Positions 23,536 to 24,525 of a stretch of 39,498 bases of DNA are shown piece after piece. The stretch's first letter is position 1. Each line of letters starts with the position of its first letter. The stretch is from Dehalococcoidia bacterium (GTDB taxonomy: Bacteria; Chloroflexota; Dehalococcoidia; Lucifugimonadales; UBA3495). The stretch spans positions 1 through 39,498 of the forward strand of contig JAJEDS010000014.1 in assembly GCA_022821365.1 (NCBI GenBank). The letters are read 5' to 3'. A program made the translations under genes and the position numbers. Under the pieces are notes generated by a model. It was not told the DNA's origin, made no database searches, and saw nothing but the letters and a program-made list of their open reading frames with translations.

Positions 23536-23763
23536 CTATACGATTTCAAGAAGCGCCCTGGTACCTTGCTTTATCGCCGCCACGCGAACCAGGACCCGCA
23601 TCGCCTGGGCGACCCTGCCTTGCCTGCCAATAACTTTACCCTTATCTTCGGGAGCTACTTCCAGACGAAGGATAACCTGGCCGTCTTCGATGGTTTCAGT
23701 AACCTTAACCGCTTCCGGATTGGTGGCCAGAGACCGAGCAATGTATTCTACCAATTCTTTCAT
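23536..23763 (-). CDS. khpA: KH domain RNA-binding protein (KhpA/YlqC)
   Basis: MKELVEYIARSLATNPEAV; LEVAPEDKGKVIGRQGRVAQAMRVLV. Confidence 0.93.
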   Translation of the reverse strand: MKELVEYIARSLATNPEAVKVTETIEDGQVILRLEVAPEDKGKVIGRQGRVAQAMRVLVRVAAIKQGTRALLEIV

Positions 23764-24053
23764 TCAGTCTGCTCTTCAACCGCTACCGGCTCTTCCTGAG
23801 GAGAGCGCAGTTTGTCGTAAATACCGTCCCTGTCAAAGATTCGCTTCACTGCATCTGAAGGTTGAGCGCCCTGATTCAGCCAGGCTATGGCGCGATCTTC
23901 TTTCAATACCACTGCAGGAGGGTCAACCATCGGATTGTACTGGCCTATCCACTCAACGTAGGCACCGTCCCTGGGAGCGGCCGAGTCAGCCACCACAATC
24001 CTGTAAGATGGGCTACCCTTCTTGCCCACTCGCCTCAACCGAATACGCAGCAT
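23760..24053 (-). CDS. rpsP: 30S ribosomal protein S16
   Basis: MLRIRLRRVGKKGSPSYRIVVADSAAPRDGAYVEWIGQYNP. Confidence 0.97.
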   Translation of the reverse strand: MLRIRLRRVGKKGSPSYRIVVADSAAPRDGAYVEWIGQYNPMVDPPAVVLKEDRAIAWLNQGAQPSDAVKRIFDRDGIYDKLRSPQEEPVAVEEQTE

Positions 24054-24270
24054 AAATACTCCAGACGAACAATTTTCAGCTTGCCTTCAATTTCGCCACG
24101 TAATTCTAAGAGCAGGCGAACCTGTTGTCAATTCTTACTACCTAGCATACCGAGGTAATGCAAGTCTGCTTCATCCAAGGAAACATATAATCGAAAAGTG
24201 CGCATGCAACCTTGGTCTTGTACGGCTGAAATGAGAGAAGAGGCTCGCCGTAAAGCGAGATAAAGAGGGT

Positions 24271-24465
24271 TCGGGCCCAGCCCATCTGGAGAGGCACCGC
24301 CCTGAAGAACTCTAGGTCCCGGGGGCGATGGTAGACATTGGCCTGGGCCCGACTAACGGGTTTTTGGTGATATGTGCCTTTAGGTCAGGCTCACCCCGTC
24401 GTGTCCAGACTGATGCCTACCATCGCCCCCGCATACTAAACTATGTTCCATGCCATATCACCTCC
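24271..24465 (-). ncRNA. Candidate structured leader RNA upstream of rpsP-khpA-rimM
   Basis: 15-bp stem 24320-24334/24417-24431, inner stem 24343-24353/24398-24408, SD-ATG GGTGATATG (24454-24462) complementary to 24366-24374, alternative pairing 24271-24280/24343-24352. Confidence 0.5.
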
Positions 24466-24495
24466 TTTTTCAGATTCCCGCCAAGCGGTTCCAAT

Positions 24496-24525
24496 ATTCT
24501 TAACATATCGGATTGCCCTTGTCAA
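24496..24525 (-). promoter_or_regulatory. Putative sigma70-like promoter of the rpsP leader
   Basis: TTGACA (24520-24525) N18 AAGAAT (24496-24501); -35 overlaps the inverted repeat GCCCTTGT-caac-ACAAGGGC (24515-24534). Confidence 0.4.

Follow-up and report, generated by a model that had tools for sequence, protein, structure and literature searches.

The nearest published design to the RNA described here is rnTrpL/peTrpL, the trp attenuator RNA of S. meliloti. This small RNA, synthesized upstream of trpE, where it functions in Trp attenuation, combines a short ORF with a terminating attenuator structure; once released, it acts in trans, and so does its peptide (PMC7298713). The short ORF within a small RNA and the attenuator-like fold are common to rnTrpL and the RNA of SAR202-type Chloroflexota analyzed here. 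Unlike rnTrpL, the SAR202 RNA is stand-alone in three of the four families in which it is found (f1, f4, f10 and f15), lacks a diagnostic codon run and has a peptide that is not conserved between families. Similarities are also found with the trp, his and ilv attenuators, namely, a short ORF that overlaps the 5' arm, three segments whose 1:2 and 2:3 pairings exclude each other and, in f1, a U-tract after 2:3. By contrast with these attenuators, outside f1 the RNA is not consistently followed by a gene that it could regulate, and the leader ORF, with its single fixed TTA, otherwise lacks a run of sensing codons. The S16 r-leader described from Flavobacteria (Eckert and Weinberg 2020; PMC7247131) is likewise a structured RNA upstream of rpsP and rimM. 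It comes from another phylum, whereas the SAR202 RNA has no Rfam match, occurs without rpsP and carries its own Shine-Dalgarno (SD) sequence and ORF, rpsP having a separate promoter. As for the E. coli operon containing rpsP, a 2024 review states that no information exists on its regulation (PMC10931766).

In the window, i.e., the whole stretch of 39,498 nucleotides that was analyzed, the minus strand carries the promoter, the strong ribosome-binding site and the near-perfect rod hairpin that a preliminary description had reported. We propose, with a probability of about 0.5, that they belong to an independent small RNA gene, ~250 nt long, whose bistable rod could be switched by a ribosome during translation, and that this gene represents a new RNA family of SAR202-type Chloroflexota. 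The features of the locus are as follows.

24496..24525, minus strand: promoter of the RNA gene, TTGACA-N18-AAGAAT, with 10 of 12 consensus matches (TTGACA at 24525-24520, 18 nt spacer, AAGAAT at 24501-24496)
24478..24488, minus strand: 5'-terminal hairpin CCGC-TTG-GCGG, kept in f1 and most f15 loci
24457..24467, minus strand: extended Shine-Dalgarno sequence of eleven bases, AAGGAGGTGAT
24380..24451, minus strand: short ORF of 23 codons plus stop, MEHSLVCGGDGRHQSGHDGVSLT
24398..24431, minus strand: segment 1, the 5' arm of the rod, inside the ORF
24320..24353, minus strand: segment 2, the 3' arm of the rod and alternative partner of segment 3, recognized by covariation and alternative pairing
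24271..24302, minus strand: segment 3, GGGCGGTG (24302-24295) and CTGGGCCCGA (24280-24271), which re-pair with segment 2
24261..24270, minus strand: pyrimidine/U tract ACCCTCTTTA, 3' of segment 3
24235..24259, minus strand: further terminator-like hairpin, CTCGCTTTACGGCGAG and CCTCTTCTCT
24103..24131, minus strand: rpsP promoter TTGACA-N17-TAGAAT, downstream of the RNA gene, with 11 of 12 matches
23760..24053, minus strand: rpsP (bS16), first gene of rpsP-khpA-rimM, adjoining the RNA gene and not part of it

Transcription of the RNA gene would start at ~24489, and a TTGACA-type promoter is present at the equivalent place in homologs, including those not adjoining rpsP. The 5' hairpin reads CCGAC..GTCGG in L078. 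An extra small hairpin between the 5' hairpin and the SD is found in f15 (L074, L076, L077, L078) and not in f1; in L077 it is GGCT-CCAAC-AGCC. The SD contains GGAGGTGA in all families and GGAGATGA in L024. A second SD-like motif, located atop the 5' arm (24400-24390, minus strand), is invariant in f1 as CG(A/G)GGTGA and has no start codon at a suitable distance.

The predicted fold has an energy of -101.2 kcal/mol versus -82.4 kcal/mol for dinucleotide shuffles (z -3.9), and none of 200 shuffles was as strong. The compensatory changes that the preliminary description had suggested seeking in relatives were found: 10 rod pairs are changed on both sides, against a shuffle mean of 3.0, with 0 of 500 shuffles reaching 10, and 98.3% of the rod cells are paired among 48 distinct sequences; the alignment was fitted to the structure and such counts lean towards the rod, yet controls with slid partners remained far lower, at 1-3 doubly changed pairs.

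A DNA search detected the element in almost every genome of the family to which the window belongs. Covariance models built from 28 copies (R1) and from 51 copies of all families (R2) extended the RNA to 53 of the 250 genomes of the order, namely, 46 in f1, four in f15, two in f10 and one in f4. There is one RNA locus per genome, the near-palindromic rod also scoring, more weakly, on the opposite strand. In f1, every genome whose rpsP locus was found has the RNA. The four f1 genomes without the RNA have no rpsP match either at E <= 1e-8, suggesting that the whole locus is probably missing from these assemblies. A class-level search of 295 genomes recovered the RNA only from the window's own genome, and a laxer search of 34 genomes without it gave only weak hits (E >= 0.02), which were not accepted. 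When GTDB genomes were scanned with a pattern, all 48 records obtained bore the title Dehalococcoidia, SAR202 cluster or Chloroflexi/Chloroflexota. Since the RNA is kept in 53 of 250 genomes and its rod covaries, a chance origin is ruled out, and its status as an RNA gene appears well supported by these comparisons. No tmRNA, RNase P, SRP or classical riboswitch motif had been recognized in the preliminary description; cmscan against Rfam gave no match at the gathering score and, at E <= 10, just two chance hits, both outside the rod. We found no small RNAs of SAR202 or Dehalococcoidia described in the open-access literature, and an earlier description elsewhere is possible.

The genomic neighborhood differs between the families. 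In f1, the RNA is always located between the divergent fmt gene and rpsP-khpA-rimM. In f4, f10 and f15, it is unlinked to rpsP and lies in unrelated surroundings, for example at distances of ~1.9 Mb in G037 (a single contig), 1.1 Mb in G048 and 1.0 Mb in G100, while rpsP is found elsewhere with its own promoter and without the RNA upstream. The next gene is convergent to the RNA in L083, L107, L121 and L099, and a strong terminator follows the RNA in f15 and f4. The f15 copies share a location, distinct from that in f1, beside convergent CoA-transferase-like genes; in L107 and L121 such a gene adjoins the RNA, and in L077 one other gene lies between. Within f1, 40 of the 43 loci have an own near-consensus rpsP promoter downstream of the RNA, and this promoter ends 38-61 nt before the ATG. 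The preliminary description regarded the element as a cis-regulatory leader upstream of rpsP. A structured, conserved RNA with exclusive pairings is indeed present, but the view that it is essentially a leader of rpsP-khpA-rimM is not supported: because the RNA is unlinked to rpsP elsewhere and rpsP has its own promoter, the reading moves from a leader to an RNA gene. Nor does it resemble an S16 leader in these respects, given the unlinked copies in f4, f10 and f15 and the separate promoter in 40 of 43 f1 loci, which place it outside the rpsP 5' UTR, and no described r-leader model matched in the Rfam search.

The RNA could still be thought of as a cis-acting leader or attenuator of rpsP-khpA-rimM, in which the rod would be the antiterminator and the 2:3 hairpin the terminator, with leader-peptide translation or r-protein binding setting the read-through. 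The invariable position upstream of rpsP and the 2:3 pairing plus U-tract speak for it in f1, as do three loci (L013, L022 and L037) without a recognizable rpsP promoter between the RNA and the gene; the distance from rpsP in three families and the own rpsP promoter in most f1 loci argue that this is not the general role, and we consider this explanation unlikely. A leader role may have been gained secondarily by f1. Complete synteny with rpsP and the three loci without a clear promoter leave room for a possible cis effect within this family. In these three loci, rpsP is probably transcribed via read-through of the RNA gene, because its own promoter is not recognizable there. Thus, they may offer a natural experiment in which a stand-alone RNA is turning into a leader. 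In L022, just 42 nt separate segment 3 from the rpsP ATG.

SD, AUG and ORF are present in every homolog examined, so that a putatively translatable ORF overlaps segment 1, as in attenuators. The start codon was previously placed in the ATATG of GGTGATATG; the likelier start is the ATG at 24451-24449, the one kept in relatives, and it is most likely that initiation would occur there. The complementarity of CATATCACC (24374-24366) to GGTGATATG (24462-24454), noted earlier, exists in the window and also in L009 and L010, but is absent in L011 of the same genus. Sequestration of the SD by CATATCACC was accordingly rejected, the complement being confined to close relatives and already lost within the genus. 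Outside the diverged group g12, all 35 distinct f1 versions of the ORF are 23 codons long and end in a stop that closely follows the 5' arm. The ATG and the TTA of codon 5 are fixed across f1, f4, f10 and f15, and no other codon ahead of the rod is invariant. The spacing from AUG to UUA is constant, whereas the SD-AUG distance and the frame through the rod vary: f1 and f4 read ...GDG(R/K)H..., f15 reads ...RAMVGICL..., and f10 and g12 read ...GRW and stop within the rod. A -1 frameshift at TTTAAC ahead of the rod was also considered and rejected, as the frames reached differ between families and give no consistent product.

These observations bear on whether the locus is a dual-function or small-protein gene, with the 23-residue peptide M(E/K/D)xSLTxRGDGRHxSGHDEVIVS as the conserved product. 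The excellent SD and the length and stop invariant within f1 would suit such a gene. On the other hand, other frames are used in f15, f10 and g12, codons 2-8 in f1 vary more at the first and second positions than at the third (entropies 0.85/0.60/0.49), and the rod codons are constrained at all three positions. Given the frame changes and the codon-position variation, conservation of the peptide above the nucleotide-level constraint was not observed, and it is the RNA rather than the peptide that seems to be kept, making a small-protein gene rather improbable. The ORF is presumably translated, judging from its SD, AUG and stop, and the act of translation is a likelier conserved property than the peptide.

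The exclusive pairing previously proposed between 24271-24280 and 24343-24352 is present, TCGGGCCCAG (24352-24343) being complementary to CTGGGCCCGA (24280-24271) in a manner that excludes the rod pairing of the 3' arm, and three families show an alternative pairing of this arm. The best downstream partner of the 3' arm beats nearly all shuffles (p <= 7/400) in 12 of 14 representatives. Significant 2:3 pairing is found in f1, including g12, in f10 (2/2) and in f15 (3/4); in the same shuffle test of the 14 representatives it is absent in f4 and weak in L078. Conserved exclusive 1:2 and 2:3 pairings, as expected of an attenuator, are therefore a property of f1, f10 and three of the four f15 loci, and not of f4. 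The helix has different yet complementary extensions in individual lineages (GGTTGG/CCAACC in f10, AAATAA/TTATTT in g12 and GGGTCC/GGACCC in L076), for which neither chance nor plain inheritance would readily account. In every case folded, the rod exceeded the alternative hairpin in stability when each was taken in isolation; thus, the alternative would need the rod to be held open. A TTT occurs at most 13 nt after segment 3 in 43 of 44 f1 loci, so that the 2:3 pairing resembles a terminator there, and no U-tract directly follows segment 3 outside f1. Terminator-like hairpins 3' of segment 3 occur in 16 of 51 loci versus 2.8 expected, the one in the window (24235..24259) being within the number expected there by chance. 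Pairing of the SD with the U-tract region in f1, suggested by RNAalifold, was discarded, as several of its pairs are broken in many f1 sequences.

The alternative pairing also weighs on a further explanation, that of a ribosome-binding decoy, in which initiating 30S/70S particles would be held by the extended anti-SD complement and the very stable rod behind it. The long complement of the 16S 3' end is kept across families and the rod starts ~22 nt past the AUG, just ahead of an initiating ribosome, but a decoy would explain neither the conserved alternative pairing nor why the f1 ORF has its in-frame stop past the 5' arm, and we find it distinctly improbable. An unrecognized, diverged 6S RNA (RF00013), which would likewise be a long, rod-like, single-copy RNA with its own promoter and which is otherwise unaccounted for in the group (RF00013 matched neither the window's genome nor any of 147 genomes of the order, weak evidence of absence given that, at the stricter setting, the 6S model also failed to find the Thermus and Deinobacterium controls), is highly improbable, because a consistent central bubble is lacking, the region has no hit to the covariance model even at E 10, and a conserved SD, AUG and alternative pairing do not belong to 6S.

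Thus, an RNA gene with two exclusive shapes is the best supported interpretation of the compared sequences; for its trigger and target, we infer the following. A ribosome initiating at the AUG would reach the rod ~22 nt further on, and translation of the 5' arm would open the rod and free the 3' arm for downstream pairing. The shape of the RNA would thereby report its own translation. In f1, where 2:3 pairing is combined with the U-tract, translation would favor termination, whereas under poor translation some transcripts may run on into rpsP-khpA-rimM and add to rpsP transcription. This termination logic cannot be general, because no U-tract directly follows segment 3 outside f1, and the output in f4, f10 and f15 must differ, with both shapes perhaps acting via the RNA itself, in trans or on stability. 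We tentatively suggest that the RNA is a stand-alone, trans-acting molecule whose shape is set by translation of its own short, sequence-indifferent ORF, possibly serving to sense translation capacity as a free-standing RNA, which one family has placed upstream of the ribosome-assembly genes rpsP-khpA-rimM.

Known attenuator-like bistable RNAs with leader ORFs belong to the genes under their control. The SAR202 RNA would represent the same design as a free-standing, strongly conserved gene, that is, a switch separated from a target in cis. Should translation of the ORF serve no other end than to shift the RNA from one fold to the other, this RNA would sense translation directly. The host group is uncultured and found largely in marine samples. 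At a minimum, the locus defines an uncatalogued RNA family, which can be added to Rfam and searched for in existing marine metatranscriptomes.
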